Below, in pieces: positions 19,116 to 59,034 of a stretch of 64,000 nt of DNA (position 1 is the first letter of the stretch; each line of letters opens with the position of its first letter). The notes beneath the pieces were generated by a model, which did not search any database, had not been told where the DNA came from, and saw only the letters and a list, made by a program, of their open reading frames with translations. Where the stretch lies: the NCBI GenBank assembly GCA_012845835.1, contig JABAKD010000028.1:13858648-13922647 (forward strand), given 5' to 3'. The DNA is from Undaria pinnatifida (lineage: Eukaryota; Sar; Phaeophyceae; Laminariales; Alariaceae). The position numbers were made by a program, and so were the translations under genes.

Positions 19116-19295
19116 AAAATAACTCCATTTAAATTTTTGTGTACCGTAGTGGGTCTAAAATCGGTCGGCGTCAGCCGCAAACACCTTGTACTCGTACGTA
19201 TTCGATTTGTATTTACAGCAGTACCGCAAGTGTAATGAAAACAATACTACCGGTGTACTATGTGCTCGTACGAATGCTACGGACGGCAACAACAC

Positions 19296-29439: not shown

Positions 29440-29692
29440 TACTAACAACCATGAAACCAGAACTTCTTTAACGATGATGACAAAACAGCCACCATCATAA
29501 CAGCAATAACTGCAACAACCATAGCAATGCATAAAGCCATTTGTGTCAACAGTCATACTACCACCGTTGACCGTACCATTGTTCTCAATACAGTAGTTTC
29601 TAAACTCCTCTGTCATCTATCTAGTCTTCTATCCAGTCCCCTCATCTTCCGTGGTCTGCTTGATTCCAAATCTCCTTTTCCACTGTAAACCA

Positions 29693-32140
29693 TTATTTAT
29701 CACGAACTCTAGGGTTTTTTACTCCCCTTACAGTTCTTGTGATAGGTGATCTCTCGAAGAAGGAACTTTTAAAGTTGTGTAATTCATTCCTCAACTTCAC
29801 TCTATTATACCTATTATTAATCATATCCTTCATTAGTTCTGCTGCTGCGTTCTGGAAAAATTTCTGAACATCTAATTGCAAATCTACATAGCTGACAATG
29901 GAGGGTGGCGTACTTACAACTATTCGACAATCTAGTTTCTACATGAGGATATTTTCGTTAATCTACAACGTTCTCATGTGGTCTCGTTTACCATACATTT
30001 TAATTTGCGAAATGCTAGGCGTACTTTGCAAACCTCCATGTCCAGGAAACGTACTGAGCTACCTGCTTGTTCCTTGACAATAGATACAGGGTTTTCTATT
30101 TATTCTCCGTCAACATCGTTAACATCCACCGGGTACATTCCATCATATATGTTCCCGTCTTGTTCAAAAATTTCTTCAAACTTTGGACCATTGCTCTGTG
30201 ATCCTAATAAAACTGTAACAATATCATCAATAGACCTTTTCGTACTGTTTGCATACTACTGTTCTATGAATGTATACGGATGCAGGGGTTCATTACCATT
30301 ATTCTTCGCATGTTCAAGTTCATCTATCACAGCTTTTAAGAATTTGAACCCATGCATAAATGTAAAATCGTTCGCTAAATCCGGTGCAGGAGAAGTTCCC
30401 ATAAATATCCCGGACGATTGTTTATATATATATTAATTCCAAGTTGTACAAAACCTTCATTTAGAACAAAGTTTATCCATTCACACAATGTATATCTTCC
30501 TACATAAAATTCCCGTTTAATTTCGGGATCTTCACATACTTCAACTGGAGGGTGTTCAAACCAATGTACTTCGTTTACTTCAGGTGTCACCTCGTCATTT
30601 TTGTGCCCGAATTTCACGTATATGGATTTATTTCCATAAGTTACTTGTTCATACGTGAATACCAGTTCCAAAAATTCTTTCATAACTCTTTTCAAGCACG
30701 GAACTGGGATATTAGGGTACATTGCTACAAAATCAAACGTTTCAAGCTGGTGAGGAGATTTATTTTCACCAATTGGGGTCATTGAAGCTGCCTTTTAATC
30801 CATATCACGCATAAGTTCAACAATGTCATTTCCTCCAGAGGTAATCCAACATTCCTTCGCTACACTACCAATAAGTAGGCATTCTTTGCGCCATATTGCG
30901 TGTAATACAGGCCTAATGCCCACTAAAATTGCATTAACTATCTTCGCTATTCCTTCAGTGATAGTTCCACAAATGATGTAATGCCCCTAATTGCTGGTTT
31001 TGCTTTATGCAATTTGGGCATAAGATATCTCACGGGTAGTTTAGAAGATTTTTCCAGAATCTTCTCTGACCCATCTAGTGCTACACATACATTTGGAATT
31101 AGCAAGCATTTTTTATTTAAATATTCCTCTTGCCGTTCAATAATGTTGTCCGTTATCGTCTCTAAGTTAACCCCTTCCACTCGTTTATAACCTGGACTAT
31201 CCAAATCCTAAATAACTACCCTTTCGTAGCAAGCTTTACACATGATACATAATAAGCAGTTCACTGCTTTATCAACTTTTATGATAACTATTTTATTTTT
31301 GGCTTGTTTAAAAACTTTCTTAGCTGCAGAAAAATCAATGTTACCCGTTGTAGGGCGTGCTTGTCCTCTTTCTTCTACATATTCCAGACACCTCTTTATT
31401 TCATTTTATAAGGCATTAGTCCAGTCTGTGAGATCAACATAGTTAACTCCTAGTTCTACACAAACACTTGACACAAGTTTATCTATTGTCTCTAGTAAAT
31501 ATTCTAAAAACGATATGTGTTCTATTCCTGGGGCATAATTTGGTCTTCAACTTGCTGGTAGTTTCAATACTGCTTCCGCATCCTTATCTCTCAAACAAGA
31601 TACGTCAGTGGTCAACACACATCTAGATGAATCTTTGAGGCATACAGTATATTCAGACCAGTTGTTGTCATTACAGATACACGTGTGATTTTGTTCAACA
31701 TCACGTCCCACAGCTGTGATGTTTAAGAACGTTCTGTCCAATGTTTCCCCGTACTTGAAACACGCAATTGATTTCGAAATAATCTCTCGAAATTCCTGAC
31801 ATGAGGGCGGAATATGGGCTAGTACATTTTGACGCATAAGTAATCCCCGTAAGGGAAGTACGTTGGCAATCTCACTGGCACACCCTTAAACGATAAGTTT
31901 AGGATTTCTCGTTTTTTCACCTCCGGTGGTGGCAACGACTTTACAAGGTAGATGTTGTCTAAGAATTTTGAAAGCTTCCCTCATGTTTCCAGGAACTCCC
32001 TCTTGTCCTGCAAACTTAATCATGCGTCTTACGCGTTTGGGGGCTAGTTTTGAGATGTGGGACTGTACTAGATGTGGTTTGTGATTAACTAGTTCAGCCA
32101 GATAAAAAACCTTACGTTTCCAGTCCCTAGACAAGAACAT
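29693..32140 (-). pseudogene. Penelope-like element reverse transcriptase, degraded
   Basis: Read 3' to 5' on the minus strand, several frames together spell the reverse transcriptase of a Penelope-like retroelement. Fingers: LPVRYLMPKLHKAKPAIRG at about 31000-31060. Motif A: FDFVAMYPNIP at about 30700-30740 with the catalytic Asp. Motif B: GIFMGTSPAPDLAND at about 30365-30412. Motif C: SIDDIV at about 30218-30235, with both Asp residues. After that come SVRFLDMEV (about 30030) and a thumb-like segment in 29693-29881. In-frame stops lie at 30256-30258, 30100-30102 and 29974-29976, and the frame shifts at about 32140 and just before motif B near an AT-dinucleotide run. It therefore cannot make a full protein as sequenced. 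The enzyme would copy element RNA at a nicked target. Confidence 0.85.
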
Positions 32141-32832
32141 TCTCTTCCTTGAAAACCTCCGTTTACTTTAGAAATGCGTTCTTCATGTCGCGATCGTTTT
32201 ATTGGTCTAATATCAAAACCATGGGATGGTATCTCCGGTGGGTGTGGTTTAACTATTTCTCTACGTGTGTTGTACCCGTTACGACACGAGTTTAACTTGT
32301 GAATCCATGCGTTTTCTTTTTTCTCCAATGCCATGAATTTCTCACATGATCCACTTGGCAAGGGAACAATTTTGGAAGTACTTCCAGAATTAATTTTGGA
32401 GTCATGCGATAACATTGCCTTGCCCAGAGGATCGTCCGTCCTCAAATGTTGCTGAAATCTTACGTACGGATTTTGAATGGTACGTCCAACATATGTTTTC
32501 CCATTTTGAACGTGTACAATCGCATTAATGTAGCAAACATTTTCTTTCGGCAACGGACGGCTTTTTGTTTTATTACCTTCTACACGCCTTTCAGGAATTG
32601 GTTTCCCTGATTTTTGTCTACAAAAAGCTCCCGGGGGGATGTTACCTCCACATTCTTTACCCTTCTCTAACCATGCATCCCTGATTCTCCAAATCCTCCT
32701 CAATTTGGGGTGGTCGCATGTAACTACTTTTCTACTTCTTACGCATGCCTGTCTCATTATTCCCAAGGGGGACCCCTGAACCCATTCTACGAAGTTTGGT
32801 GGTCTACCACGTCCACCCCTACTCTTGGGCAT
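32089..32832 (-). CDS. GIY-YIG endonuclease domain of the Penelope-like element
   Basis: A 247-codon frame starting MPKSRGGRGRPP. Residues ~98-135 hold the GIY-YIG core: CYINAIVHVQNGKTYVGRT, followed by the helix with RFQQHLR. Downstream, LEKKENAWIHKLN supplies a candidate for the conserved Glu, and NGYNTRRE resembles the end of the fold. In classical Penelope elements this nuclease follows the RT; here it precedes it, as described for the domain-permuted Chlamys/Hydra/Naiad clades of Penelope-like elements (family knowledge). Its stop overlaps the next frame (ending 31886) by about 50 bases, so the nuclease and RT were probably one polyprotein separated by a frameshift. Nuclease frame itself appears intact, start at 32832 chosen as the first Met. 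Confidence 0.8.
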   Translation of the reverse strand: MPKSRGGRGRPPNFVEWVQGSPLGIMRQACVRSRKVVTCDHPKLRRIWRIRDAWLEKGKECGGNIPPGAFCRQKSGKPIPERRVEGNKTKSRPLPKENVCYINAIVHVQNGKTYVGRTIQNPYVRFQQHLRTDDPLGKAMLSHDSKINSGSTSKIVPLPSGSCEKFMALEKKENAWIHKLNSCRNGYNTRREIVKPHPPEIPSHGFDIRPIKRSRHEERISKVNGGFQGRECSCLGTGNVRFFIWLN

Positions 32833-32840
32833 GGATGTTC

Positions 32841-33484
32841 TTAGATAATCTTGAACTTCACCCCGTGAAGTTCAAAAAGTCTTGAGATCGTGTTTAGCCC
32901 TTTATTCGTAGAACGAGTAGTCCACATGTATTCCGTAATGGGGTATGTAGTTGAGATGGGAACATGGTGGTCGGTACGTGGGGTGGGCGGGGCGGGGGCG
33001 GGGGGGGGGAAAGGGTATTTCCGTATATACATTTCATAAAATTATTCTGATAAGGTCAGTTTCAATTTGAAACACAGGTTTAATACCAACTTAATGATTT
33101 GCAAATCACGTCCATCGTCAATTTCTAGACGGTTTTCCAAAGATAAATTTTGGAATGGTAGTAATGGGTCTACATGCATATCGTAATATTAATGATATTT
33201 TACGACAATGTTTAAATTATAAGTAAATTGTAACCAAATTTGAACAATATCACAATCCTGTATCAATTCCAACACTGGTAGGTCTCTGCAACTTCAAAAA
33301 TTCCGTAGGGTGTTGTTAAGAAACACCCAAATGGATCGATACTCATAAGAGTCGAATAGCGGCAACGGAATGCACTTACGTGACCATTGCTCTCCATTAA
33401 AATTGGTGGGTCACTTGGGCTACCTCGTGGGGCCGACTCCAAGGGCTTGGATATTTTATAAAAAATATTCCAAGGACGTTAGCC
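32841..33484 (-). other. 5' leader side of the Penelope-like element
   Basis: No coding signal. Holds a G-rich run at 32978-33010 and AT-rich DNA. On the minus strand this lies upstream of the GIY-YIG frame, between it and direct repeat R1 right copy. Confidence 0.4.
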
Positions 33485-33790
33485 GTAAGTTCGACGAATT
33501 TCAGGTTAATAATAATCTTTGCAAGCTACGTTGTCGGTACTTGTAATATACCATAATAAGGGTGAGGTTTTGTTAGGAGGGGTCCTATTTTTTGTTCACT
33601 ATGATGATAAGCATTGGCATTTTTACTTTAGGTGGGGAATTTTGAGCTTGATCTAACATCACATCCATTTTACAATTTCTTTTCTGTAGTTTCCACTATT
33701 ATAGTTCTCTATCATATGTATGGTAGGCGGTATATTTTGTTTTTCTCCCCCCCGGCTTTAATATCGGGAGGAGTACTAATACGGAATGTT
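33485..33790 (+). repeat. Repeat E with upstream shared block
   Basis: AAGTTCGACGAATTTCAGGT and GTTGTCGGTACTTGTAAT match 11617-11690; then TTAGGAGGGGTCCTATTTTT, TTTAGGTGGGGAATTTTGAG and TTTAATATCGGGAGGAGTAC match 13856-14100 and 18233-18300. Confidence 0.6.
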
Positions 33791-33792
33791 AG

Positions 33793-36314
33793 TAGTTATC
33801 TTATATGTTACTCTTAATAAAGCATTCGAGAATGAAAGTCGGCTACTCCCCCCCCCAAATTTTTTTTAATAAAAACTCTGTGGGACACGAACCCACGGTT
33901 CCAAATTGATACGCTGTCAGTCAACAGGTAGGTGTGAGTTCGACGAATTTCGGGTCAGTACTCATATTTTGAAGCTGCTTGCTGGAACTTGACCTCTACT
34001 ATATGGGTAAACTTTTCAATGGGAGGGGTCCTATTCTTTTATTAACAAATGTTTTTCTCCACTACATACAATGATTGGCGTTAGTAGTTTTACTTCATGT
34101 GGGGAATTTTGAAGTAATCTACAAGTAACACCATATCTATTTTATACATTTATTTCTGTAGTTTCCATTATATTGCTCTACCATATGTATGGTGGATGGT
34201 TTGCAGATGGATGGCTTGGTCAGGGTGGTCGGTACTTGTGGTTAAGTGCGTAATTAAATTTTCTTTACTTTGGGGTTGTTTATATTATTATTATTTTGTT
34301 TTATTTTTCACTGCAGTGGCGGGTTTTGGTATATATCGGGAGTATGAAGACAGTAGTAGTGGTCTAATAGATATCATGTTGAAATACCACCTTGAAAAAA
34401 TATTGTAAATAAATAAAAATGGAAATAAATAAATCAATATAAATAAAAAAAAATGAAATAATATACTGTCACCACAACATTTTACATGTAAAAGTCCCAC
34501 CCTAAAAACGAAAATCAAAGACAAAGAGCAAACAAAACAAAGACGAAAAACAAACATAAACAGAACAAACAGAACGCAACAAAATCAAAAACAAAAAAGA
34601 AAATAACAACGGGAGTCGGTGAGCCTCGAACGAACCCACGGTTCTAACTTAAAACGCTGTCACCCTAACACAAAAAATCCCACCCCTAGAAGAAAAAAAA
34701 AAGAAAACGGGAGTCGGTGAGCCTCGAACCCACGATTCTAAATTAATACGCTGTCACCCTAAAAAAACATGAACAATCTCACCCGGGAGTCGGTGAGCCT
34801 TCCGTTCTCTCATCATTTCGGTATAATTCAGATTTTTGTTTACAACAGTTCGCACTAAATACTAATCTTCATATGGTACCATTCATATTACTGAGTCATG
34901 TCATCATGCAAGAGTTGCAAAGCTGTTTCCCCGCATGGGGAATACATTTTATCACCTGTTAATTACACTGGTTATTGGTACTAGGTTACTGAGTCAGGTC
35001 ATATATATGAAGAATCGATGGATTGGAAGTACACCTCGTACTCATCATGGTAAATCAACACGTTGTGAGCATGGATTATGAGCTGACGAGTTTTGACCAT
35101 GGCTATTATAGTGAGCATCATCGGCAAGTTGTGATATACTCATGGTACTTCCCTTGCATCGGGAGTGCACAGCAGTCGTGTATATCCAGTCCGTCCCATC
35201 CTTTCTGACTTGGTATGATCGCTCCCATATGAATGCTTGTATCTCGTCCATGACATGTCATTCTCGTTTTCCTTGGACCGCACTTTTTTTCAGTTCTACT
35301 CACCCGTATACTAAACTCCCTCATCACCAAATGTTTATCTGTATGTTTGCCGCAGATGAAGGAAGTCTTTCAGTTTTTCAGCACGTGAACAGCTTAGCAA
35401 TGCACTTGAACAAGTAAGTCCCTAAGGTTTCCTGGTTCCCCTCAGTCACTACCGGACGGTACTGTAGCAAAAAAGACTGAGCTCAAAGCCTTGATTCCGC
35501 ACACAACGAAGGTTGAAGCAAGGAACCAATACCGACTGAATGTACAAGTGCATTGCTTATATTTTGTGTAGCTGTTTTTCCACGATCTTGATTGAAGTAC
35601 CTGCGTGCGAAACGGAAATACAAAAGATTAGTTAATCCGTTTCACGGCTATGTTTCTTGGGTACGTACTACCGGTAGACAAAAAGAGGCAAATAATTTGG
35701 GACACCAGTCATCATGTTGTTACTGATTGTTGAATTTTGCAAGTGTGAGGTTGGTTGTGTTGGCAAGCACATACATTTAACAATGTTGATGTTGGTTCTG
35801 TTGAGAAACAAATAAGTTAGAGTTTCATCTTAGATATTGGGAATGCATCATTTTGTATCTCGTAGCCCAATGATGCGGGACATTTGGGTTTTCAATGTTC
35901 CCCCTCACAATCAATTCAGGTAATGTGCACTAATATCCTCAGGAATACTGGTGTATAATACCTTCCTTGATTGTACTAAGTTTTGATTTTTTTTTTTTGT
36001 AACTTATGCGCTACAAATAGGAGGTAGTTTTAGAAGTTTGATGTATGATATATTCCATCAGTGGATATTGGATGCATTTAAGCTCCTGTATTTTAACAGC
36101 CGTTTAATATCATTTGTTTCATTATCTTCATTAATCCGTTAACCTTTGGATGAATCTACATTTTTCTAAATAACAATAACAACCATAACATCATCAACAG
36201 ATGTAACCACAGTAACAACAGACCTCAGCAATTACAGCAATCATAACAATAATAACAACAATAACAATAGCAATAGATACAAGACAGCAACAAAAGGAAC
36301 GACAATCACGACCA
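33793..36314. repeat. Long direct repeat R1, right copy (empty site)
   Basis: 2.52 kb partner of 26004-29439. It lacks the repeat C array and preserves the uninterrupted target at about 34018-34035. It carries the tRNA-like T-arm at about 33890-33905 (GTGGG-TTCGTGT-CCCAC read on the minus strand) and related ones near 34630 and 34725. It lies upstream of the minus-strand Penelope gene. A small frame with splice-like borders (CCGCAG at 35355, AAG-GTAAGT-like at 35414) is shared by both copies but I do not call it a gene. Confidence 0.75.
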
Positions 36315-36572
36315 CAGAAACAAACAATGCGAGTTCGCACAACACGTTGCTGCAGCAACGGCGACCTCCGCAGCCAGCACTGGAGCGCCTTCCCCTAAGG
36401 TGCCCAGTCATAGATAGCACTAGTGCCATTATCACAGCCAGCTCCCTCCCTCCCATGCTCCGCACGCATAGGCACTCTGCCATGGAACGAGTATGTAGCA
36501 GGAAGATGGGCTAGGCCATGACCACAGACAGCCGATTTTTTACCTTTGAAAACTTACGCAGTACAGGCACCA

Positions 36573-45177: not shown

Positions 45178-45616
45178 ACAGGTCCGCCCGTATATCCGGC
45201 CGACCTGCTATCCCGCCGTTTCAGGGGGGGGGAGTGTTATAAGGCTTAGTTTGGGTAAGCTATTGGTTAACCTTTTGCAAGTGGTCAAACGGACTAATAC
45301 CCCACTAAAGTCCTTAACAAATGGCGTCGTCGACAGACCATGGGTTTTTGGGTCGTGGGTTCGATCCCCACCATCCACAATAATAAACTTTTCAGATTTT
45401 CTCCATGTCGAACTTGAAAAACACTCTCCCTGGTATCCCCAGGAGATGAAACGGCTTGGATATTGACAGAGGTCCGCCCTATATCCGGCCGACCTGCTAT
45501 CCCGCCGTTTCAGGGGGGGAGAGTGTTATAAGGCTTAGTTTGGGTAAGCTATCGGTTAACCTTTGCAAGTGGTCAAACGGACTAATACCCCACTAAAGTC
45601 CTTAACAAATGGAAAG
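45178..45616 (+). repeat. Repeat C array, cut by the LTR element
   Basis: Two units in plus orientation, hairpin first (CAGGTCCGCCCGTATATCCG), then GTTATAAGGCTTAGTTTGGG, the tRNA-like T-arm GTGGGTTCGATCCCCAC near 45356-45372. The second unit stops at TCCTTAACAAATGG, where the 5' LTR follows within a few bases. No remaining part of this unit is found after the 3' LTR. Confidence 0.7.
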
Positions 45617-45882
45617 TGTTAAGATACGGCCTCGAAAGGCCTGTAGGTATCCGAATTTAAGATCATTTGGATGGGTTTCGTAAAGGTTGGCGGTTTATAT
45701 TCGGGGAAGTTAGGAATTAGATCGGAGAGACGCGCCTCCGATCTCAGAAGCTATCCCGGGCTCTGGTGGAAACGAATAAAGCTACATCTCTACGAAGGAA
45801 CGAAAGTGAGTACTCTCCGAGGACCTGCTCAATTGGCAGACCTGCAGGGGGCACTCTGTGTCCCCCACCCTTTAATTTCACA
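45617..45882 (+). repeat. 5' LTR
   Basis: 266 bp starting TGTTAAGATACGGCC and ending TTTAATTTCACA, so TG...CA ends. Pairs with 58011-58279. It includes a short inverted repeat GGCCTCGAAAGGCC and a GATCGGAG...CTCCGATC stem. Confidence 0.9.
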
Positions 45883-45884
45883 TA

Positions 45885-45902
45885 TGGCGTCGACGAGCTT
45901 GA
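45885..45902 (+). promoter_or_regulatory. Primer-binding site
   Basis: TGGCGTCGACGAGC starts two bases after the LTR. TGG is the complement of a tRNA 3' CCA end, so reverse transcription would be primed here by a tRNA ending CTCGTCGACGCCA. Which tRNA is not known. Confidence 0.6.
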
Positions 45903-48900
45903 TATGCTATTGTGGCAGCGTTCTTCCGGTCTCTCCGATTTTTTTTTTCGTAGCGATTTTGCTTTTGCTTTCCATCGAGCCCACCACCCCTGTTCCTTCT
46001 CGGGTGGCTTCTCAATGGAGGGAGCGCCCTTCCTCCTACAACGGTGACCACAACAGCAGTGAGATGGCAGGGGCCCCTCCTGTTGGTCGCCGCGCACGTA
46101 CCACACGGACGACACCTTCCAAGTACGTGCGGACGACACTGCTCTGCGGAGCACACTCCTCGTCTCGAATTTTGTTCCCTCCTGTTGGTTGCTGGGCACG
46201 CACCACACAGAGGACACTTTCCGAGTACGGGCGGACGACACTGCTCTTCGGAGCACACCCCTCGTCCCGGCCTTTGGCCGCATCAGTTCACCGCCAGCTG
46301 GTCATAGACCACTCCGCAGTGGAACTGCCCGAGCCCCACCCATCAGACTTGTTTGCTCCGCGCTCTGCCAGCATGTTGCACAGCACATATCCGCGAGTTG
46401 CCAGCACAAGCCCCAAGATCGGCCATCGACTCGTACTTTTTTTTCGCGCTTTGGGGCTCGGAGGCATATGCACGACATGCCACGGACAAGCATACTGGAA
46501 TCAACCCTTCGAATGACATTCGAAGGGGACTTCGCTCGCTGAGAGAGCCCATCGCCCAGCACATCCTTGCTGTCGGTGCCAGACCGTCCTTCGCGGAACC
46601 CCCTTGGACTACGGGCACCGTGCTCTAGGAGCTCATGTCGGGGCTCCTTCCTTGTGATCTACCTGGGAAGAAACAGGCGGTGCTCGTGGAATGTTTGGGC
46701 TTTTTCGTTTGGCGAATTTTCCAGTACACGCGTTATCGTATGGGTTTCAGTACATACGTCGATCATTCTTGTGCGTCGAACAAGCAGCTGCCCCCTTTCT
46801 GCCGAAATTAGTACAAGCTACGAATTTGACGCACCTCGGACCCCTCTCCGATCTTTCTCGATCAACAGCGTTCCACTACTGCTGTCCGTCGCGTAGCTTC
46901 AACCACCATCATTTTTGCAGAGGTGCCAACTACAGTGCAGCACAATGGGCTCGCTGTCAATGCCTGCCATATACCGCCGGATTCTCTGCTGTAGAAGTCA
47001 CTGTACAGCAGCCAAGCCGCCTACTTTGCTCCTGCTTATACACCACATAGCTCGACCCTTCACTGCCCCAGCGTCCACAGTTACAGCACCGCAGCTCTGA
47101 CACCCCCCACTGCTGTGCGAGTGCTCCTTGCAAGTTCGATTCGAGAGTTTTTTTTTTCGTCCTGGCCCCTCCGTGACTAGAACTTGAACCTAGTGAACGC
47201 TGAAACTCTGTGCTGGCTTTTTGGGCAAGGCTGTTGGTGTGTGCGATGCCCTATATTCTCCCATTCATGGGTACGCGGGGACTATAATACCACTTTCTGT
47301 GTATGCACAGCTGTGACCGTGCGGCACTCCGCACTGCTGTCAACGTAACTGTCCCTTTATCGGTGGGAGTGGGTACGGATTGTTTTTTTCAGCTGTCCGG
47401 GCGTTAGGCCGCCTTTCTGCCGGTACATGTGCTGCCCTTCACGATATTGCTAGGGTCTACGCTGGAATTTTTTTTTCTTCTTCTCTGCACATGTTCGGAC
47501 AGCTACTGCCCGTTACAGAGCGCTTACTACACAGTTCGCGGAGATACTGCGCTTCACAGTTTTTATTAGTGCAGTGGAGAACAGCCCGTTTAATGCGGTA
47601 CCTTTGGGGGGTACACAGCCTTTCTATTCGACTGTGGGCGTGCACATTTTTCTACAGCTGGTGTTGGTACTACACTACCCATCTTGGTGCGGTTGAAATT
47701 GCCGTTACCTGTGAACACAGCAGTGATACTGCAGCAATCAGCATTACTGTAGGCGCGACCGTCCCCCTTCAGTGCGGTCGGGGGAAACTACTTTGTTTGG
47801 GGGGGTTATACTGCCCGTTTGTTTTAATATACGGTTGGTGCGCGAACGTATACTGTCCTACCCCCCACTACACTACTGTGGGGGCAGATGCTGCCCATTT
47901 TTATACGGTTGGCTGCGCGATCCTTCACTGTGCTCCCCCCCTACACTGCACCTAGGGTAAATGCTGCCCGTTTTGTTGCGACGAGTGTCAGCGCGTTGGG
48001 TGACCTTTCACTGTGCTCCCCCCCCTACACTACACCTAGGGTACATGCTGCCCGTTTTGGTGCGATGAGTGTCAGCGTGTTGGGCGATCTTACACTGTGC
48101 TTCCACCCCTACACTACACCTAGGTTAAATGCTGCCCGTTTTGGTGCGATGAGTGTCAGCGTGTTGGGCGATCTTACACTGTGCTTCCACCCCTACACTA
48201 CACCTAGGTTAAATGCTGCCTGTTTTGGTGCGACGAGTGTCAGCGTGTTGGGTGACCTTTCACTGTGCTCCCCCCCTACACTACACCTAGGGTAAATGCT
48301 GCCCGTTTTGGTGCGCTGAGTGTCAGCGTGTTGGGCGATCTTACACTGTGCTCCACCCCTACACTACACCTAGGTTAAATGCTGCCTGTTTTGGTGCGAT
48401 GAGCGTCGGCGTGTTAGGCGAACCTTTTTTGTGATAACCCCTACACTACACCTAGGGTAAATGCTGCCTGTTTTGGTCCGATGAGCGTGGGCGTTTTGGG
48501 CGACGCTTTCCTGTGCTACCTCCCCCCGCCTAGGTCGAATGATGCCTGTTTAAGTGCGATGGCTGCAGACGTACCCTTACTGTGTTGCACCCCCTGCACT
48601 ACGGTTAGGGTCAGTGCTGCCCAGTTTTGGCTCCTTGTACTGCGGTTCGTGCGGGCGTTACCCATATACCCTACGGTCAGACTGGGCGCTGCTCTTATGT
48701 TGCGGTCATGATGATTGGTACCTTGTTACTGCTGTACTCCTCTTATACGGCTAGTTGACGTGGCTGCTACCATCACTAAGGCTGGACGGCGTTAAGGCCC
48801 ATATTATTGCTGTTTGCTGAAACACAGATATACCGCTCCTTGGAGCAGGAACACCACAACAATTTATCTGTCTCCATAGCTTCTTCACGCGTCGTTCCTA

Positions 48901-48930
48901 TCCCCCCCCCCTTCACTACACCTAGGCACC
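45903..48930 (+). other. Long leader of the LTR element
   Basis: About 3 kb with no recognised domain. It holds a ~120 bp tandem duplication (46078-46280, units starting CCTCCTGTTGGTCGCC and CCTCCTGTTGGTTGC) and an 84 bp VNTR (47941-48620). Chance frames of 281 codons (45671, starting inside the LTR) and 191 codons (47380) have no domain and cross low-complexity DNA. A tRNA-like complement (AACTTGAACCTAGTGAAC) lies near 47180. Confidence 0.55.
47941..48620. repeat. 84 bp tandem repeat in the leader
   Basis: CTACACTACACCTAGG recurs at 47941, 48025, 48109, 48193, 48276, 48359 and 48441, periods 82-84 bp, then two decayed units. Since 84 is a multiple of three, one frame (47888-48295) stays open through four units. 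Confidence 0.9.
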
Positions 48931-50991
48931 ATGTCCACCAGTGACGATGGGGGCTACTCGGGGCTGGCTGAGGTCATCCACGCACCCCAACCTGGATGCC
49001 CACGAGACAGGGAGAGCTCGCTCGAGATGCCGCGACTCGAGACGGGGGGAACCACCGGTGGCGGGTTCCGGTGACGAGATAGAAGACGGAGCACCATACC
49101 TCCACCCGTTTCCACCAACCAAGCGGGTCGATTCGCTGGTTCGCGCTGAGAAGAAGACGGATCAACCCCCACCGGAATCGGGGGCGTCTCGACGCCAGCT
49201 CTCGCCAGCCCCGGGGGAGCGCCACCAGCTGCCCCCCCCGCGCTCGACAGGGCACCACCGCCGCCACCTGGGCTCTCCGCGCTCGACAGAGCGCCACCCC
49301 CAGAGCTCCCGGGACCGGGGCGCCCATGCCGCCCCCTTGGACTTGGCATACGCGGCGGCGCGGGCCAGCGGGCGCTCGACGACGCCAACCAGACGATAGC
49401 ACGCCGACGTCGGTTTGACGAAGATATCGAGCAGGCGAAGACCGCTTCGCGGGAGTCGTCAGTTGCGTCGGCTGCGGCGGGAGCTACCGCGGCCCCCTTG
49501 CCTTCGTCGCGCCCGCAGGGTGTCGCATCCCAGCGACCACGACCCGGGAACGACGCCTTCTTCAAGGGCATCGTCGCGTGCATGGCGTCTGCACCGCGGG
49601 TAGACTTCTCCTCAGCGTTGGCGACCCGCGGTGGTGGAAACGGCCTACGCCCTCCTCCCGTCAGAGAGGCCGGCGTCGCGGCAAGCGGACGTCCTCAATG
49701 GAAGCGGCCTGGGCTCGCGTGGATTGTACGCCCTATGCTAGACAGACGAGAGCCACCCCGACCCTTGCCCTCGTCAAGGCCCTGCTGATAGCCCACGACG
49801 AGGACCCCGACTCTGTCTTTTGGCCGGACCCCGGAGGAAGAGTTGGCAGAACGAAACCGGGGAAAATGTCGCAAAAGTCGCGACCGCGGGGACCGCAACC
49901 GTGGAGGTGGCGGCAAAAATGGTGGGGGTGGCGACCACCACCACCGCCGCGGGGGTGACAGCGCATCGGGTGCTGGTGTGCCTGAGGGCGCCGCCGAGGG
50001 GGCAACTTTGGTCCAACAACCGGGGCAGTTGGCCGCAGCTCGGGCAAAGGAATGGCGCGAGAGGACGTTCAGCGTGGGACGGCTCGTCAACCTCCTCCCG
50101 CTCGTCTTCGTCCTCGAGCACGGACCACAGCGAGGTGGTCGTGGTAGCAGGCAAAACGTGTCAAGAGCCATGGCAGGAGGAGCATCTTCCTGAGGCTTTC
50201 ACCCTCCTGTTGCGTCTGCTGATCACGCACTTCGACGGGGTCGACACGGAGAAGGGCTACACTAAGTTGCATACTTTTGGAATGTGTAACGGCATGCCTT
50301 TTTCTGATTTCAGTGGAGTTTCGCGTACTTATGCCGACCGCTACGCGGAGTGAGAGTGTTTTGTCTACGGGAACGGATGTGGTGTTGGAGGTGGTTCGGG
50401 TGGCGGCGAATGAGCAATTTCCGGCTCTCCTGCCTGCGTTGTACCCTGGTTCGAAGGCAACAAACCCGCGGCCATACGCGTCGTTGGATGCTATGTGGCG
50501 GTCTTTGAGTGACCAATAAGACACCTGCCGTCAACGGCGAAACATTTTTTTCTCTCCCTGTTTCTTCGACGGGAGCGCGGTCATACGCCCTGTCGGGGCC
50601 CCGGCCCGCAGATCACGGGCGCGGCCAGGGCCGAGTGTCGTCCCAGTCGCTTTCGTGGCAGACGGGATCGAGCCATCATTCAACTGTCATGCCCATCGAT
50701 GATTCATCTGACCCTTGGCTTGACCACACATCGAACTGCTGGCCACTAGAAGAGCATCATTATGCAGAAGGTTTCGCCGTTAAGGCCTCGTTTAAGATAG
50801 GCGACCCTCCCCTTTGGAGCGGCCTCCTTTCACCTCGGGCTGATGCCCTCCGAGAAAACCGGGGGCTTTGCCTCAACTGCCACGAAGACAGCCATTTCTT
50901 CAAGCATTGTAGGCATCCTTTCATTACTGCGAGTGGCTGCTTGTACCCTGAACTAGGCCAACTTGGCGACGATGACGCACACCGACGTTGA
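48931..50991 (+). pseudogene. Gag-like region with zinc knuckle, frameshifted
   Basis: A start at 48931 (MSTSDDGGYSGLAEV) reads until a stop at about 49073, then the protein-like signal moves between frames: DAFFKGIVACMASAPRVDF (about 49550), RATPTLALVKALLIAHDEDP (about 49750), Arg/Gly-rich DRGDRNRGGGGK (about 49880). The last frame (50509-50991) ends with CLNCHEDSHFFKHC, a CX2CX4HX4C zinc knuckle at about 50869-50911, as in retroviral-type nucleocapsid. Such knuckles bind the element RNA during particle assembly. At least three frame changes mean it is not translatable as one protein as sequenced. Confidence 0.6.
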
Positions 50992-52260
50992 CAAACACGC
51001 ATGGTCTGCCTCCGCCGAGACGACAAATCTTTTCGCCCGAACAACCACACGAAAAATCGTCGCCATCTTTCAGGATCAGGGCCAGGTAAACTGTCACAAC
51101 GATACCACATACACGTCGGATCACCATGTGGGTATCCAGAGCTCGCCCGCCTCTTCTGCCCCCGCTCCTGCTCCTCGAATGCGTTTTGGAGCCGCCCACA
51201 ACCCGGGCGAAAATAAATTTGCGCGCCAACCTGGCACACTCCGTAACGGCAATCGACAGCTCGACGGCGGTACGGCACCGTCGACAACACTGTCGGGGGG
51301 GTACCTATTTCGTTTTCAGAAGATGCTCGTGTTCTGTTGCTAGCCTGTCCAGTAACGCAGCACAGATTGCTTCTGTCAAGAGCCCACGGGCTCCTACGCC
51401 ATCTGCGGACGATTCTCACGGCGTAGTACCGGCGGCGGGAACTAGCGCTTCAAGCGTGGTTTCCTCCAGCCAGGTAATTTTTTTCTTTTCTTTCTTTTTT
51501 GACGGCGAGAGCGCACGCTTTCAGCGACGTTCCCCTCGGTCATGGTCTGAGTTCGGCAACGGGAACCGCGCTTCCGGCGCCGTACCCCTCAGCCGCGGCA
51601 TAAACTCAGCAATGGGGGTACGCGCTCCAAACGCCGCCCCCGTCAACCATGGCACGGGAGCCTGCGCTTTGCGCGCTCCCCCCCCAGGCACGCGCCGCGC
51701 AACAATATAGCTGCGGTGACGGCGCGTCGCCTTTTTACGCGTATGTGTTCATCCCCCCCTCTCCCTGACCAGGCGGTGGCGGTCGGTTTGAGGTGTGGGA
51801 CGGTCGACCCTCGAAACACTTTTTCTGATCACGAGGTGGCGGTCGATTGGAGGTGTGGGAAGGCCAACACTAAAACACCGAGATCTTTTGCGAGGCTCGA
51901 TCCGGTGTTTGCTCGCGATAACAGCGGGCGCTCTGTCCTTTTTTCCATCAAGGAGGAGTCGACAAGATTAGCTACCTTGTCTCCCTTCTTCACGAGACCT
52001 AACGGAAGAGAGCCTCCTCGGGTAAAAATATTATTGCCTTGCCCGAGCCCCGCTCCAGAAGACGCCCACAGGGTTTACGGACCCTGCTTCGTCTTTAAAC
52101 ACGCTAACCCACGTGTTTCAGGCTACGTGTGCCCCAGTGGCACAGGAAAAAGATCCGACACTGCGCGACGGGCCAGTGGTGACTCCACGGCCTCCAGCCT
52201 GATCAGCTGGACGCTATTCCCGTAAATTTACGGAAGAATCGCGCCTCTCGTCAAGCAGAA
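50992..52260 (+). other. Between Gag-like and NADAR regions; no domain seen
   Basis: Pro/Ser/Ala-rich frames with degenerate repeats: GCGCTCC-containing ~60 bp units at 51525-51700 and a duplicated GAGGTGGCGGTCGATTGGAG block at 51772-51860. No aspartic protease DTG/DSG motif and no RT motif found in any forward frame. Confidence 0.5.
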
Positions 52261-52282
52261 ACAGCTCAGAGCCCCTGCCCCT

Positions 52283-52865
52283 TCGGGCGCAGTTAGAGCA
52301 GTTTTCTTGCGATTATACGCCAAAAAGCGAAGAGGCCACGACGCGAGAAACCGTGGGTTCGGACTCGCGTCGTGCTCCCGAGGCCTGGTGTTCCTGAGGG
52401 GGACACTACAGGCCCAAAGAGCCGAGGACTGGTGTTCCCAGAGGGGGACATTGCAGACCCAAATGCCCAACGAGGCTACCGACGGGTTGGCACCGTCGGT
52501 GTTGGACTCTTTTTCGGGTGCAGCGAGGGCGGCTTTTTACGAGTTTCCGCCAGCGAGTGAAGAGGACCCGAGGCGAGAAACCCCAGGTTCGGACTCGCAT
52601 CTTGCTCCTGAGGCCTGGTGCTCCCGCAAGGGGACACTACAGGCCCAAAGAGCCGAGGACAGATGCAGACCCACAAATGTCCAACGAGGCTGCCGACGGG
52701 TTGGCACCGTCGGTTTTGGCCATTTTTCGGGCGCAGTTAGAGCGTATTCTCGCGCTTTTCCGCCAACGAGCGAAAAAAAGACCCGAGGCGAAATACCACG
52801 GGTTCGTATTCGCGTCGTGCTCCCGAGGCCTAATGTTCCTGGACGGGGACATTGCAGGCCCAAAT
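52283..52865. repeat. ~220-230 bp tandem repeat, three units
   Basis: Units begin at about 52283, 52509 and 52727 (TTTTTCGGGCGCAGTTAGAG or variant) and include CCCGAGGCCTGGTGTTCC, GGGGACACTACAGGCCCAAA and GACGGGTTGGCACCGTCGG. The third unit runs straight into the NADAR frame, so its N-terminal extension is repeat-derived. Confidence 0.8.
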
Positions 52866-53372
52866 TTCAACACGGACTTTGACCCTTCTCTCGAATACTC
52901 CACAGCCAAAGTGGTGTTATTCTGGCAGCCCCCATCCTATTTCCCACCGTGGTCTCCTTCGTCGTTTGCCGTGGACGAAGTACCATATTCTTGCGCGGAG
53001 CAGTACATGATGGCCGAAAAGACCAAGTTTTTGCAAGACCATCGAGCAGTGGGGCTCATTATGTCGTCGCCTCGTCCAAGCACACGCAAACGCATCGGTC
53101 GAGGCGTGCGGAACTTTGACTCCGCTGTTGGGGACAGGGAGAAGCAAAACGCCGTGTCACCTGGCACCTACGCCAAATTCACGCAGAATCCAGCCATAAA
53201 AATATCACCTTTTGAGCTCTGACAACAAGCTTCTGGCTGTATCCAGCCCTCTGAACCCATTGTGGGGCATTGGCCTCCGGGCGGATGGTCCCAGGGCCAA
53301 CAACCCATGCCAGGGGAGAGGAAACACTTGCTCGGTGAGGCACTTTCTGCCGTTCGCGCAGCTATTTGCGAC
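52518..53372 (+). pseudogene. NADAR (YbiA/DUF1768-like) domain, two frameshifts
   Basis: The frame 52518-53222 has, from about 52911, VVLFWQPPSYFPPW, then FAVDEVPYSCAEQYMMAEK (with the conserved Glu), RKRIGRGVRNFD and TYAKFTQNP. These match the NADAR fold in order. The C-terminal half continues in two other frames: DNKLLAVSSPLNPLWGIGLR (53218-53277) and, after a second shift near 53320, LLGEALSAVRAAI. NADAR proteins are N-glycosidase-type enzymes tied to ADP-ribose, NAD-derivative and riboflavin-intermediate chemistry (family knowledge). Both conserved ends are present, so the domain was complete before the shifts. Position inside an LTR element, between Gag-like and integrase regions, is unusual. 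Whether it is encoded as a Gag-Pol fusion or separately cannot be told. Confidence 0.8.
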
Positions 53373-54659
53373 AATGAGACCGGGTCGGCGCATCCGGCCT
53401 CCCCTAGTCGGTTCCGCACCTGCACTGCGAGTGCAAGAACCAAGAAATCTCGTCCGCGCCGCAACCGGACCGTTCAGAGCGGCCAGCGCTCGCAAAGCTC
53501 CCCCTTCGGCGTTTCCGACCTATTTCTCGGGCGCGTTGGCCAATGAAAAGCCGTGAAGTTGTGGAGATAGCTCCTAGCGTCGACCCTGACCTTGCGATGT
53601 CAGAACACTGCCCCTGTTTCGTCGAGGGTACCGTGACGCTGGACGACGTTTTGTTCACTATGAAAATCGCGTATATCAGTCGAGCACGACTCGGAGAGGC
53701 ACTGGACTCCTATAGATTTGGGGACCGGCAGCATTGCTTGGGTTCCCAAACGCCTCCGAGGATACTGAGGGGAACAAAGTTCCGCATATCCTCCGGCCAC
53801 AAGACATAGGAGAGCATTGGCAAAGTGGGGACCCTCAATGCACGAGTCCAGCGGTAGCTTGAGTTCGTCACCGCGTTCGATTGTACATTCGAGTACCGCA
53901 AAGGCAGCGCCAAGGGCATCGCCGATTTTTCCGGCCCGTTTTCCAGAGCCCGCTACGGAGTACGACCGCAGTGGCTTGAAAAAAATTCAACCTCGTGGGG
54001 TTGACAAGCCCCAACCCCGTTGGAGATAGCGGTATCTACCTCCTACGGACCCGCGGGCTGCGCGCTCCCTCCTCGCCGATCCCAGGAGTCGGTTCGGGTG
54101 GACTCGCGCCCCTCGCCAAAAGGACGGCCTTGGGTGGGCTCGTGCCCCACACCGAAAGCATTGCTTTGGGTGGACTCGAATCCCTCGCCGAAAGCACTGT
54201 CTTGGGTGGGCTCGTGCCCCGACTGAACATGCTGCCTTGGGTGGGCTCCCTCTCACCTCTACCGCGTTTCACGATTTTCGCACACACGAGCCACGTATAA
54301 GGATTGACGGCCTTTCTGTTTCCCCGGGGAGATTCGTCGCTCGTGTTTCTGCCTCCGTCGCCACTACCGAAGGCTGTACCGGCCGCGGGTCGATTTCACC
54401 TGCCGCCGACACTGTTTTCGCTTCGGTTTTTGCCATCCCCATCGAGGGCGGCACGGGCTCCGCAGAAGCCCTGGCTGCAGCGACGCCCATCGCACAGCCG
54501 ACTTATCTATCCCGGAGTTCTTTACAGGAGACAGCCCTCGCCGCGACCACCGGTTCGACTGTGTCCGTCTCCGCCATGCTTGGCACTCCAGCCCCTCCGT
54601 TGTCGACGACGCGCCGACGAACAGCGACAACAACGGGTAATGCACCCCCGCTGTAGATT
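53373..54659 (+). other. NADAR-integrase interval; no RT or RNase H
   Basis: About 1.29 kb in which all forward frames were read. No F/YxDD box, no RNase H motif and no protease motif. A 42 bp tandem repeat at 54120-54245 gives LGGLVPHTESIA-type units. This is where RT and RNase H would normally sit in a Ty3/gypsy pol gene. Confidence 0.6.
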
Positions 54660-57152
54660 ATGGATTCGGGCCCGGCGGGGCTCCTCGGCCATCTTGCGGA
54701 CGAAATACAACCCCGTCGCGAGTTCCACGGCCGCAGCCGACCCCGTCGCCGCCGCGACCCCTGTTCTTGTCGACTCGCCGGCCCGCACGGTGCCACTACC
54801 GTCCGACCGCGACCACGCAGAGCCTATATGGGAACTCCTCTCTTACGGCTTACGCCTTCTCCTGGTGGCACGCCGACCGCATATACAAGGTCGGACGCCC
54901 TTCGCAACGCTGCTGAATTGCGTTTCGCTGATTTCGTCGCGCGTTATTCACATGGCGATTGGAAGCGAGAGCAGCACGCTGAGCCGACATGCCACGCCAT
55001 GATGCGTTACGTTTCTATCGGCCGGCCATCGACTCCCCTGCCACCGGACTTCTTGGCATGCTACCCCTCGCCCAAGCGTCCCTCTCTCTCAGACATCCAG
55101 GAACTGGCGGATAAGGGTCGACTACATACAACCGACGACGACTTTGTCCTGCTCGTCCGTAAACCGACACTCCCGCACACAAGCTCTGACAAACCGAACT
55201 CTGTGGGGCGAGCTGCTTGCTTGCTAAACAACGAGCCAGTTCGCATCTACGTTCCCCTGCTCATGCGCCCTTGGATCATGCAAGCTTGCCACTCGACGGC
55301 CTCCTGCCACCTTGGCACCACGCGCACGTTGCGCATGCTGGAGCGTTTTTATTGGTGGATTGGCATGAACGTGTGTACCCGGTGGTGGCTTCGCCACTGC
55401 TTGAAGTGCCAAGCGCGAAAAACCTCACGGCTGACTGTCCGCTGGCCCATCATCACAATGCCTCTGCCGGAAGGTCCAGGTATCGCCGTCAGTGTTGACT
55501 ACTTCGGCCTCCTTCCGGTCACACCGCGAGGCAACACCTACATCCTGCTGTTCACCGATCGCTTCAGTCGTCGGGCCGACATGTTCCCCGTCACTGCCGC
55601 TGAGTTCACCGCGGAAGGTACAGCCAATATCCTGGTGAACCAATACATCCCCTTGTGGGGGTGCCCGCGCACCATACTCTCGGAAAACGGACTGCAGTTC
55701 TGCTCCAAGCTTTCACAAGCTGTATATCAGCTGTTAGGTGTACACAAGCTTGCTACAAGCTCCTACCATCCCAACTGTAACGGGGGCATTGAGCGGGTAA
55801 ATCACACTATGGCACAAATGCTGGCTATGGTCGTCAACGAGCGACAAGACGACTGGGACTTGCATCTGCCCCACGTCGAATTCGCTTACAACAACTCTGT
55901 CAGCGCGGCGACGGGTTTGGCGCCCAACGAGGTCCACATGGGCAGACTCCCACGGCTCCCCCTGACGATTTTCGACCGCAAAGGTGTCGTGGGACACCAG
56001 AGTCTGGCCCGTGACCACCTGGCCTATTGCGATTTGGCCACCGACCGGCAAAAGCGCGCGAACGACATTGTCCGCGCACACCACGCCCTCACCGTTTCCC
56101 GTGTTAACCGCAGAAACTCCGCCCTCGCCGACGCGCTGCGTCCAGCACCTAACTTCACTGTGGGTGGTTGGGCATGGGTATACAATTCTGCCTCTACCAT
56201 CCGCCAGGGTGTGACAGCGAATACCGACGCCAAGGTACTCAAGGCCAAACTCGCGCTTAACTGGACGGGCCCATACAAGGTCCTGGCCGTCGGTCCCTGC
56301 TCCGCCGCCGAGACCCCGGACGGCTCGCCGCTCGGGAGCAACCTCCTTTATTTGGATCTCCCTTCCGACCTGCCTGGTTCGGACGCTCGTCGGCGTGTGG
56401 CTATCGAGCGCTGCAAACCCTGTGCCAACCCCCACGACAGTGGGGACATGCCCAAATACCTACCGGCGGGGCTGACACAGTATGTGCTCAACAATTTTTC
56501 CAAGAAGTCCCCGCTGTACCACGTCACTCAAGACGACGTTTCGACTCCCCTCCAACGGCTGGAGGTGGAGCAGATCACTGGTCATCAGTCGGTACGGGGG
56601 CGAGGTGGCGTCATCGCGGTGCTATACAAGACGCATTGGGCGGGACTCTCCGAACCGTCCTGGGAGCGGGAAATGGACGTTCACCTCTCCCGCTCCCACA
56701 TCTTGCGTTATTGGGTCGGAACCCCGGACCAGCACCGCCAAACCAACCGCCTTTACCGCCGAATGCGGATCGGGGCGGCACAGCGTGAGCTCTCCCGCAA
56801 GAACGGGGAACGTTTCCTAGCGCCGGGCTACGCCTGTGTTTCCCGCACCGATTGGCTCCGTCGCTACCACGACACCGTACTTCCCAAGGGAGCCCACTTT
56901 TGGTACAAGGGAGACGATGGTTTATGGTGGCTAGGAAAAATCAGCGCGAGCACTACCGAGGACAAGGTATACCTGGTCCGCTTTCTGGACGACCCGGGGC
57001 CGATTAAACTCCCTCTTCCCCCGGCGCGCTACACGACTTCAACGGGAGCCGTACGAGGCTCTTGGTGCTTGCAAGTTCACATCGCCAGTGCGTTTCCTCG
57101 GGGAATCCAACGTAACGTAGACGAATCTCGAGGCGCGGCCTTGGCCAGTTGA
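54660..57152 (+). CDS. Ty3/gypsy integrase with chromodomain and Tudor-like tail
   Basis: An uninterrupted 830-codon frame. Residues 211-250 form the H2C2 zinc finger (His211, His217, Cys247, Cys250). The core has Asp280 (SVDYFG), Glu342 in ILSENGLQF where family members have Asp, and Glu378 (GGIERVNH), spaced DD35E. Residues 534-540 give the GPY module (NWTGPYK), residues ~634-687 a chromodomain (LEVEQITGHQS...LYKTHWAGL...SWERE...ILRYW), and ~746-794 a Tudor-like segment (HFWYKGDDGLWWLGKI, VYLVRFLDDPGP). Integrase inserts element DNA; chromodomains direct it to marked chromatin. The first ~150 residues are Arg/Pro-rich and may be out-of-frame Pol, so the true start is unclear. Second catalytic Asp replaced by Glu may impair catalysis. 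Confidence 0.9.
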   Translation: MDSGPAGLLGHLADEIQPRREFHGRSRPRRRRDPCSCRLAGPHGATTVRPRPRRAYMGTPLLRLTPSPGGTPTAYTRSDALRNAAELRFADFVARYSHGDWKREQHAEPTCHAMMRYVSIGRPSTPLPPDFLACYPSPKRPSLSDIQELADKGRLHTTDDDFVLLVRKPTLPHTSSDKPNSVGRAACLLNNEPVRIYVPLLMRPWIMQACHSTASCHLGTTRTLRMLERFYWWIGMNVCTRWWLRHCLKCQARKTSRLTVRWPIITMPLPEGPGIAVSVDYFGLLPVTPRGNTYILLFTDRFSRRADMFPVTAAEFTAEGTANILVNQYIPLWGCPRTILSENGLQFCSKLSQAVYQLLGVHKLATSSYHPNCNGGIERVNHTMAQMLAMVVNERQDDWDLHLPHVEFAYNNSVSAATGLAPNEVHMGRLPRLPLTIFDRKGVVGHQSLARDHLAYCDLATDRQKRANDIVRAHHALTVSRVNRRNSALADALRPAPNFTVGGWAWVYNSASTIRQGVTANTDAKVLKAKLALNWTGPYKVLAVGPCSAAETPDGSPLGSNLLYLDLPSDLPGSDARRRVAIERCKPCANPHDSGDMPKYLPAGLTQYVLNNFSKKSPLYHVTQDDVSTPLQRLEVEQITGHQSVRGRGGVIAVLYKTHWAGLSEPSWEREMDVHLSRSHILRYWVGTPDQHRQTNRLYRRMRIGAAQRELSRKNGERFLAPGYACVSRTDWLRRYHDTVLPKGAHFWYKGDDGLWWLGKISASTTEDKVYLVRFLDDPGPIKLPLPPARYTTSTGAVRGSWCLQVHIASAFPRGIQRNVDESRGAALAS

Positions 57153-58010
57153 CTTCCAAGCCACCACCCCTTCTCGATAGTTCTTCATTTTTTTGAGGTA
57201 TGAGTTTTGCGTCTTTGTCTTTGGGTCGTTCGTAGTGTCCTGAGGGTCTTCATCGAGTTTTGGGGCGGTTCTTTCCATTTTTTTTTCTGTCCTGCCGAAC
57301 CCCCTGCTCAGTGCCGGGTCAGGGTTCGGGTAAAACGCCGCTATCTGAGGCGCAGGGTCGCCGTCTTTTTGTCATAGTTCAAATTCGCCCTGCCGACGCC
57401 CTCCTCAGCCCAGAGCCGGGGGGCGACCAGTGTACGGGTCTGTGTGTCTTCTTTTATGTTTTGTGTGTTGTATTTGTTCTGCTTTGTTTTTTTTTTCCGT
57501 CTAAACACTTCCTCCCCTAGCGGGGCTGTAGGTGTTGACACCTTCCATCCCGGGTATTCGTCGCTTCCTCGTCTAACCCCCCCGCCTTGCCGATGGCCCG
57601 CGGGAGGTTTTTCGCATGACTTCTCCCTTGTGTTAGCGCCTGTGTCCCCCTCTATATCGACGAGGGCTCGCCTCGCCATAGTACCTTTTCTGTGGTTGGT
57701 TTACCGTAGAGCCTTTCCTACCCCCCCCCGCCACACCGGCGGCATGCGGCATGTTCTAGAGCCTTTTCTGCCCCCCCGCCACGCCGGCGGCATGCGGCAG
57801 GTTTTTGATGGGTGACTATTGCCTTGCTGTAGGGTCTGCTTTTCTTTCTACTGCTTTTCTTCGCGTGTTCCTGGCTCCGTAGCCAGACGGTTAGAGGTGT
57901 GGGAGTGGGTTTTGAGGAGCCGCATCTTCGACTCATGGTCTAGTTCGTCGAACCGGAGTTTCCCCGAATCTCTCATATTTCTGCATATGCGACTCATCAG
58001 GGTGGGCTAG
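57153..58010 (+). other. 3' untranslated part of the LTR element
   Basis: T-rich and pyrimidine-rich with a tandem CGCCACACCGGCGGCATGCG / CGCCACGCCGGCGGCATGCG pair at 57729 and 57778. No gene seen. The putative polypurine tract (CAGGGTGGGCTAG) is at 57998-58010. Confidence 0.5.
57998..58010 (+). promoter_or_regulatory. Putative polypurine tract
   Basis: GGGTGGG next to the 3' LTR start; short and imperfect. Would prime plus-strand DNA synthesis. Confidence 0.4.
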
Positions 58011-58279
58011 TGTTAAGATACGGCCTCGAAAGGCCTGTAGGTATCCGAATTTAAGATCATTTGGATGGGTTTCGTATGATAAGGTTGGCGGTTTATATTC
58101 GGGGAAGTTAGGAATTAGATCGGAGGCACGCGCCTCCGATCTCAGAAGCTATCCCGGGCTCTGGTGGAAACGAATAAAGCTACATCTCTACGAAGGAATG
58201 AAAGTGAGTACTCTCCGAGGACCTGCTGAATTGGCAGACCTGCAGGGGGCACTCTGTGTCCCCCACCTTTAATTTCACA
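58011..58279 (+). repeat. 3' LTR
   Basis: 269 bp, TGTTAAGATACGG...TTTAATTTCACA. Differs from the 5' LTR by a 4 bp TGAT insertion after TTTCGTA, about four substitutions and one base in the C-run before TTTAATTT. Confidence 0.9.
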
Positions 58280-58351
58280 TAGTACACAGAGAGGTAGGGG
58301 GGTGGATCTGATGTGCCAAACGTCATGAAGCCAACGCAATAATAATAACAA

Positions 58352-58786
58352 TTATATCCCCCCCCCGCCCCCCCCCCGCCCCCCCCCCCCCCCTTTTCAA
58401 CCCCCCGCCCCCCCCGCCCCCCCGCCCCCGGCCCCCACGCCCATAAAACTCCGCCCTCCCCTCACCCGTTATACGACCTACTACAGAATATACTTGATAA
58501 TAAACTGAATCATGATGCATTTCCTCTCACCACCAGTCAACGCTGTCAGATTTTGTCCCCCTCAAAAACGTTTTTTTTTACAGTTTCCGCGCACAGATTG
58601 GTTAGTATCACCCTGTTGACCGTGGTACAAGCTACACTGTAGTTCTAAGGGGAGTCGCCGACCTATATCCTTGATGAGGACACACGCCCAGTAATACGCG
58701 CGATCGGAGGATCACACACAGCTTGCAAATATGAGTTTCGACAAAATCTTCGATCTTACTTGTCCTGGAGGAGGGCATTTTTATTT
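58352..58786 (+). repeat. Repeat B, plus copy of an inverted pair
   Basis: C tracts at 58355-58430, then TCAGATTTTGTCCCCCTCAA, TTTCCGCGCACAGATTGG and GATCGGAGGATCACACACAG to GGCATTTTTATTTTCG. It abuts the inverted copy 58787-59034 end to end. Confidence 0.7.
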
Positions 58787-59034
58787 TCGAAGATTTCGTC
58801 GAAACTCATCTTTTTGCAAGCTGTGTGTGATACTCCGATCGCGCGTATTACGGGGTGTGTGTCCTCATTAATGATATAGGTCGGCGACTCCCCTTACAAC
58901 TACAGTGTAGCTATCAGGGTCAACAGGGTGATGTTAGTCAATCTGTGCGCGAAAACTATAAAACCCGTTTTTGAGGGGGACAAAATCTGACGACTGACTG
59001 CTGTGGAATGCACCAGTTTACTATTATAGTGTGT
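58787..59034 (-). repeat. Repeat B, minus copy of an inverted pair
   Basis: GAAGATTTCGTCGAAACTCA, CTGTGTGTGATACTCCGATC, TGTAGCTATCAGGGTCAACA and GGGGGACAAAATCTGACGA. Mirror image of 58560-58786, joined at the AT-rich 3' ends, giving a near-palindrome of about 470 bp. Confidence 0.75.

Follow-up and report, generated by a model that had tools for sequence, protein, structure and literature searches.

NADARs remove ADP-ribose from guanine in DNA (PMC11543638) and are the only hydrolase family found to reverse guanosine ADP-ribosylation on RNA (PMC11833690). Phage NADARs have been proposed to guard phage DNA from host transferases, and the roles of eukaryotic NADARs have been called unclear (PMC11125620). 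Within retroelements, NADAR domains have been reported in one Gypsy lineage of Ectocarpus, for example Gypsy-12_Ec32, and in ORF1 of the Tx1 LINEs (long interspersed nuclear elements) of Crassostrea gigas, which belong to an unrelated retroelement class (PMC12477816, Genome Biol 2025). Among the papers listed in our literature searches, none other dealt, judged by title, with NADAR in a long terminal repeat (LTR) element. Here we analyse an LTR element of the brown alga Undaria pinnatifida that carries a NADAR domain and a long integrase frame, and in which no reverse transcriptase (RT) was found. The element occupies positions 45617 to 58281 of a window of 64,000 nucleotides, by which we mean the whole stretch analysed (assembly GCA_012845835.1, contig JABAKD010000028.1, positions 13,858,648 to 13,922,647, forward strand). 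Judged from its integrase and RNase H matches it is of Ty3/Gypsy descent, and it is very probably a member of an amplified, non-autonomous deletion family derived from the NADAR-carrying Gypsy lineage described in Ectocarpus.

The coordinates of all features are collected in Table 1. An earlier note on this DNA had described LTRs, a zinc knuckle, a NADAR domain and an integrase frame, and these were all borne out, with LTRs of 268 and 271 bp that are 96.7% identical by self-comparison of the window, a Pfam match to PF08719 (E=1.8e-18) and an open integrase frame of 831 codons. The note had also reported that both RT and RNase H were missing. We were not able to find RT anywhere in the window, either by tblastn with RT pieces or by a profile run over stop-to-stop stretches of at least 25 residues, but a broken remnant of RNase H survives (53688-54060, E=1.9e-21), with which tblastn of the Ectocarpus protein P0138 agrees (relatives are cited by our protein handles). 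Between 50992 and 54659, where a significant match to either had been sought, one is thus present for RNase H and absent for RT. Along the element NADAR is followed by the protease stub, the joint, the RNase H remnant, a spacer and the integrase; of the Ty3/Gypsy series protease, RT, RNase H and integrase, only RT was not found, the protease stub, RNase H remnant and integrase standing in their usual order.

The stub (53603-53671) matches residues 1-23 of a P0052 segment that leads into the protease of this protein. What is missing is RT, together with the active site of the protease on one side and the initial portion of RNase H on the other. Other relatives have kept the protease, with the DTGS motif in P0052 and P0059 and the protease start in P0042, P0093 and P0116. 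Because relatives hold protease and RT between NADAR and RNase H, the loss of RT is explained by one deletion.

The earlier note had suggested that NADAR replaced or displaced RT and RNase H, and one could imagine a functional RT-less element that replicates in a new way involving NADAR, since NADAR is recognisable in the window and RT was not found there. We regard this as having next to no probability. NADAR lies 5' of the deletion, upstream of the missing block, and the same order, NADAR before RT, is known from P0138, an Ectocarpus Pol protein in which NADAR (E=1.9e-40), RVT_1 (E=1.5e-25), RNase H and integrase are joined in one chain; the NADAR of the window is moreover frameshifted and substituted at conserved positions. 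Proteins of the P0138 type, holding both domains, led us to reject NADAR as a substitute for RT. What did gain support is the note's further suggestion that the element, lacking RT, would need another element for its reverse transcription. A scan of viral contigs with P0138 gave three pattern matches, none of them encoding a relative.

The junction left by the deletion, at which the protease start runs directly into the middle of RNase H, is not private to this copy. A database search with the joint stretch of a relative, P0100, returned 59 proteins, P0100 itself among them. The same joint is spanned in 33 of these (P0100 included) and all 33 carry the same downstream frameshift, as scored with a consensus probe written from the matches themselves and with cutoffs that we chose; the window has that frameshift as well. 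Seven further proteins have the shifted tail but lack the upstream side. In six of them (P0269, P0270, P0273, P0274, P0276 and P0277) the sequence starts no earlier than the joint; the other, P0280, belongs with the RNase H proteins that come with RT and has a shift of its own. The joint is absent from the remaining 19, which are RNase H proteins. The 33 joint proteins form separate clusters at 90% identity, and no two of the longest contigs of the 39 proteins (33 with the joint and six with the tail) are equal in size. NADAR and the joint stand within one frame in P0030 and P0100, and three pairs of NADAR and joint matches have longest contigs of equal size (8203, 34817 and 4111 bases), which suggests that in these pairs, too, NADAR and joint lie on the same contigs.

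The deletion and the RNase H shift are common to other copies while the LTRs of this copy are still nearly identical, and both changes are therefore older than this insertion. By the same token the element was copied after it had lost RT, and we infer that the copying was done by enzymes supplied in trans. It is nevertheless worth considering that the copy in the window is dead and stands alone, an ordinary autonomous NADAR-Gypsy element having suffered a private deletion of RT once inserted; its several broken frames and one changed catalytic residue of the integrase would fit such a history. The joint and the downstream frameshift shared by 33 of 59 proteins from separate clusters make it very improbable, and a private deletion in one copy was rejected on the ground that the joint is common to many relatives.

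Several observations weigh against the deletion family that we favour. No target-site duplication was found, the two flanks of the element being different. The family counts come from database proteins rather than from the window's own assembly, and these proteins come mostly from ENA records that may represent more than one species; relatives were compared as proteins only. The integrase frame of the window copy is fully open, which is not required of a passively decaying element. Finally, in the E. coli C7 NADAR the glutamate matching one of the residues lost here (see below) is dispensable, and a nearby aspartate does the work (PMC11543638).

Set beside described systems, the element is closest to the NADAR-Gypsy lineage of the Gypsy-12_Ec32 type, Ectocarpus proteins such as P0138 being its relatives; it differs in that RT, the active site of the protease and a portion of RNase H are deleted and that its NADAR and RNase H frames are broken. 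The available parts of PMC12477816 describe no RT-less Gypsy derivative and name Tudor only in another Gypsy lineage. A NADAR inside a Gypsy element is therefore already published, while in the sources accessible to us we found no RT-less derivative whose joint recurs in other copies, no tree that joins element NADARs to stand-alone ones (here obtained after four long-branch rows were removed), and no mention of the possible Tudor-like domain described below.

Non-autonomous LTR elements made by internal loss (of the LARD, TRIM and BARE-2 types) offer a second comparison. In these, too, LTRs are kept, the genes for copying are gone, the loss is common to many copies and a helper is needed, but in the element of the window a long integrase frame remains and NADAR can still be recognised.

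We propose that one internal deletion, perhaps a template jump during reverse transcription, removed RT together with the active site of the protease and the beginning of RNase H. What was left would then have been copied many times with proteins from intact relatives, RT-less copies being carried by helper particles, and the NADAR and RNase H frames of these copies would have decayed.

The state of the NADAR in the window is consistent with such decay. The domain is not contained in one open frame, as two frameshifts lead out of frame and back. In an alignment of 20 NADARs a nearly invariant glutamate and an invariant lysine stand seven residues apart, and a glutamate of the last strand is also nearly invariant; by spacing and description we take these to be the published catalytic residues. 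The Glu/Lys pair is present in the window, but valine occupies the position of the last-strand glutamate, which is described as the catalytic residue in the YbiA family (PMC11125620), and the nearby aspartate is replaced too. Since two frames are needed to read it and both of these residues are substituted, this NADAR is very unlikely to be active, and most likely inactive. The likeness to NADAR/YbiA ADP-ribosylhydrolases (PDB 8bau and 2b3w) lies in the Pfam match and in the predicted fold of P0052, whereas the two frameshifts and the missing last-strand glutamate set the window copy apart. A PDB sequence search with the window NADAR frame gave one weak match, 8bau (E=0.018). For P0052 the best structural match was 8bau (E=1.5e-5), followed by 2b3w (E=3e-3), with a model whose mean pLDDT (predicted local distance difference test) is 51 and which is good only at about residues 41-110.

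A database search with the window NADAR matched 158 proteins, of which 120 were listed, many of these at 75-90% identity. When the listed matches were classed by a simple pattern and score cutoffs, the end of NADAR was read in frame in 28, seven of which are not element proteins (P0091, P0094, P0095, P0096, P0098, P0099 and P0111), and in a shifted frame like that of the window in 18; the other 74 stop before the NADAR end or fit neither frame. Fifteen of the 120 end at the first NADAR break, as the window does. Because 158 proteins match and P0030 and P0100 hold NADAR and joint in one frame, a private nested insertion of NADAR appears unlikely. The shifted tail common to 18 listed matches, together with the shifted frame of P0100, which is open into the protease stub, raises the thought that the shared breaks are programmed frameshifts by which the family still makes a NADAR-containing protein. 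We give this only a very slight chance, as the shift falls inside the NADAR fold, RNase H is shifted too, and 28 of the listed matches, including the seven outside elements, read this part in frame.

In intact relatives NADAR may have a function. By analogy with the characterised NADARs, it would act as an ADP-ribosylhydrolase, clean guanines of the element's RNA or cDNA and so protect the copying intermediate, a role that we put forward as possible though rather doubtful. We found no assay of an element NADAR in the literature. It is quite plausible, at somewhat below even chances, that the NADAR of intact elements acts elsewhere, on riboflavin intermediates, in other RNA processing or in an NAD-linked chromatin step: E. 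coli YbiA cleaves riboflavin intermediates (PMC11543638) and a role in processing RNA intermediates is proposed in the Ectocarpus paper (PMC12477816), although the NADAR representatives tried on guanosine-ADP-ribosylated RNA did reverse the modification (PMC11833690). This alternative bears on NADAR function alone and is no rival to the deletion family. More speculatively, and in our estimate unlikely, a host NADAR might have been captured by a brown-algal Gypsy element as a shield against an ADP-ribosyltransferase defence, be it the host's or another element's; the RT-less family would then parasitise shielded elements, its dead NADAR being tolerated through particles that bring an active one. 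If true, this would be the counterpart, in a eukaryotic retroelement, of the phage NADARs. A NADAR kept within Pol offers a natural eukaryotic setting for asking whether ADP-ribosylation limits retroelements, and the RT-less copies provide a natural comparison: if they spread with a dead NADAR they should depend on a helper, so that an effect on an element's own RNA can be told apart from one shared through the particle.

NADAR is also found as a stand-alone protein in Ectocarpus, Pylaiella and Scytosiphon (P0091, P0096, P0094 and P0099). P0091, P0094 and P0099, and in part P0096, start with a Cys/His-rich motif, perhaps a zinc-binding segment. In a first tree of 74 rows the element NADARs did not hold together as a group (1% of bootstrap trees), and the tree gave no clear placement of the stand-alone genes relative to them; very long branches led to two of the element rows, P0211 and P0180. 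A second, midpoint-rooted tree of 70 rows was built after P0211, P0180, L065 and L095 had been dropped. Its bacterial and viral rows were taken from odd-numbered loci only, with a domain of more than 125 residues, and were found with patterns from P0091, so that the sampling leans towards P0091; P0100 was left out as too short, and P0098 was labelled host by us. Here the 12 element NADARs form one group (96/75), which joins P0091, P0096, P0094, P0099 and P0098 together with P0108 at a support of 99/88. A grouping of the 17 element and stand-alone rows without P0108 was not rejected (approximately unbiased test, p-AU 0.41). On average the element NADARs are 52.6% identical to the stand-alone proteins and 46.5% identical to the bacterial rows, and for the P0138 NADAR the best stand-alone protein reaches 57.2% as against 56.6% for the best bacterial row (Capnocytophaga, L005). 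Taken from about half of the bacterial rows and with a stand-alone query, these comparisons lean towards an exchange of NADAR with a host gene over a recent bacterial transfer.

Within the integrase frame the zinc finger is matched in Pfam (E=1.4e-12) and the core falls below the cutoff (E=7.8e-6). The catalytic triad reads D-E-E instead of D-D-E, the second aspartate being replaced by glutamate. Among 120 listed integrase relatives (184 were found) 88 have D-D-E and none has glutamate at the second position; the nearest named matches in this list are from Ectocarpus. Three of the closest relatives, P0121, P0131 and P0165, look frameshifted by eye, and integrase decay may thus occur in the family as well. 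Downstream of the probable chromodomain, Foldseek matched the stretch 56895-57014 to the Tudor domains of PHF1 and PHF19 (probability about 1.0, E about 0.03, 30-32% identity over 43-44 columns). All its matches have E above 0.001, and the VIA-align rows are TraI of the F plasmid relaxosome. A second fold resembling a chromatin reader, of Tudor-like type, is accordingly possible, the structural match being suggestive.

In the 5' part of the element, the Gag-like frame (50509-50991) had no match in a Pfam search, and no tRNA able to pair with the candidate primer binding site was found in the window.

Table 1. Features of the NADAR-carrying element, in window coordinates
Feature	Position	Strand	Basis and remarks
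5' LTR	45617..45884	+	268 bp; 96.7% identity to 3' LTR
Candidate primer binding site (TGG...)	45885..45898	+	directly 3' of 5' LTR; from sequence
Tandem array of ~83-84 bp units in long 5' leader	47828..48630	+	direct repeats, self-comparison
Gag-like reading frame	50509..50991	+	list of open reading frames (ORFs); zinc knuckle CX2CX4HX4C at 50869-50910 (motif scan)
Three diverged direct repeat units just 5' of NADAR	52330..52841	+	direct-repeat scan
NADAR, N-terminal two thirds	52854..53201	+	frame 52398-53222; Pfam PF08719 E=1.8e-18, profile 2-108 of 163; tblastn of P0138 at 52854-53189
NADAR continuation, second reading frame	53200..53321	+	tblastn of P0138 at 53206-53322; last-strand Glu and nearby Asp substituted
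NADAR last helix, first reading frame again	53322..53384	+	frame compared by eye with NADAR alignment
Protease stub, N-terminal end of protease region, DTG part missing	53603..53671	+	tblastn of P0052, 65% over 23 residues, E=2e-6
Deletion joint, protease start to middle of RNase H, no RT between	53666..53692	+	tblastn
RNase H remnant, broken	53688..54060	+	tblastn of P0284, three frames, E=1.9e-21 and 2.1e-14
Repeats in spacer between RNase H and integrase	54093..54248	+	direct-repeat scan; P0138 and P0127 match across spacer
Integrase frame, 831 codons	54657..57152	+	zinc finger ~55254-55424; core ~55476-55772; ORF list, Pfam, motif scan
Probable chromodomain	56550..56729	+	
Possible Tudor-like domain after chromodomain	56895..57014	+	Foldseek; range inferred from strands
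3' LTR	58011..58281	+	271 bp; self-comparison

Immediately upstream of the 5' LTR, the stretch 45237-45612 contains two copies of a repeat of about 85 bp, each preceded by a G-rich tract, and resembles a miniature LTR element of the TRIM type. The sequence TGGCGTCG follows the first copy of this repeat and also follows the 5' LTR of the Gypsy element. Seven further matches to the repeat, all minus-strand, lie at 11.7-12.4 and 26.2-27.1 kb.

Other repeats were found elsewhere in the window. Just beyond the 3' LTR, 58545-58991 is a long inverted repeat whose arm pairs are 94%, 85% and 94% complementary; related copies occur at several places in the window, and it looks like a family of miniature inverted-repeat transposable elements. 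At 27085-36326 an AT-richer stretch with a GIY-YIG frame (32089-32871, Pfam E=3e-5) is flanked by direct repeats, two copies of about 2.4 kb that are 91% identical; this is possibly a Penelope-like element. A nested tandem duplication with units of about 1 kb that are 89-99% identical occupies 19293-23465.

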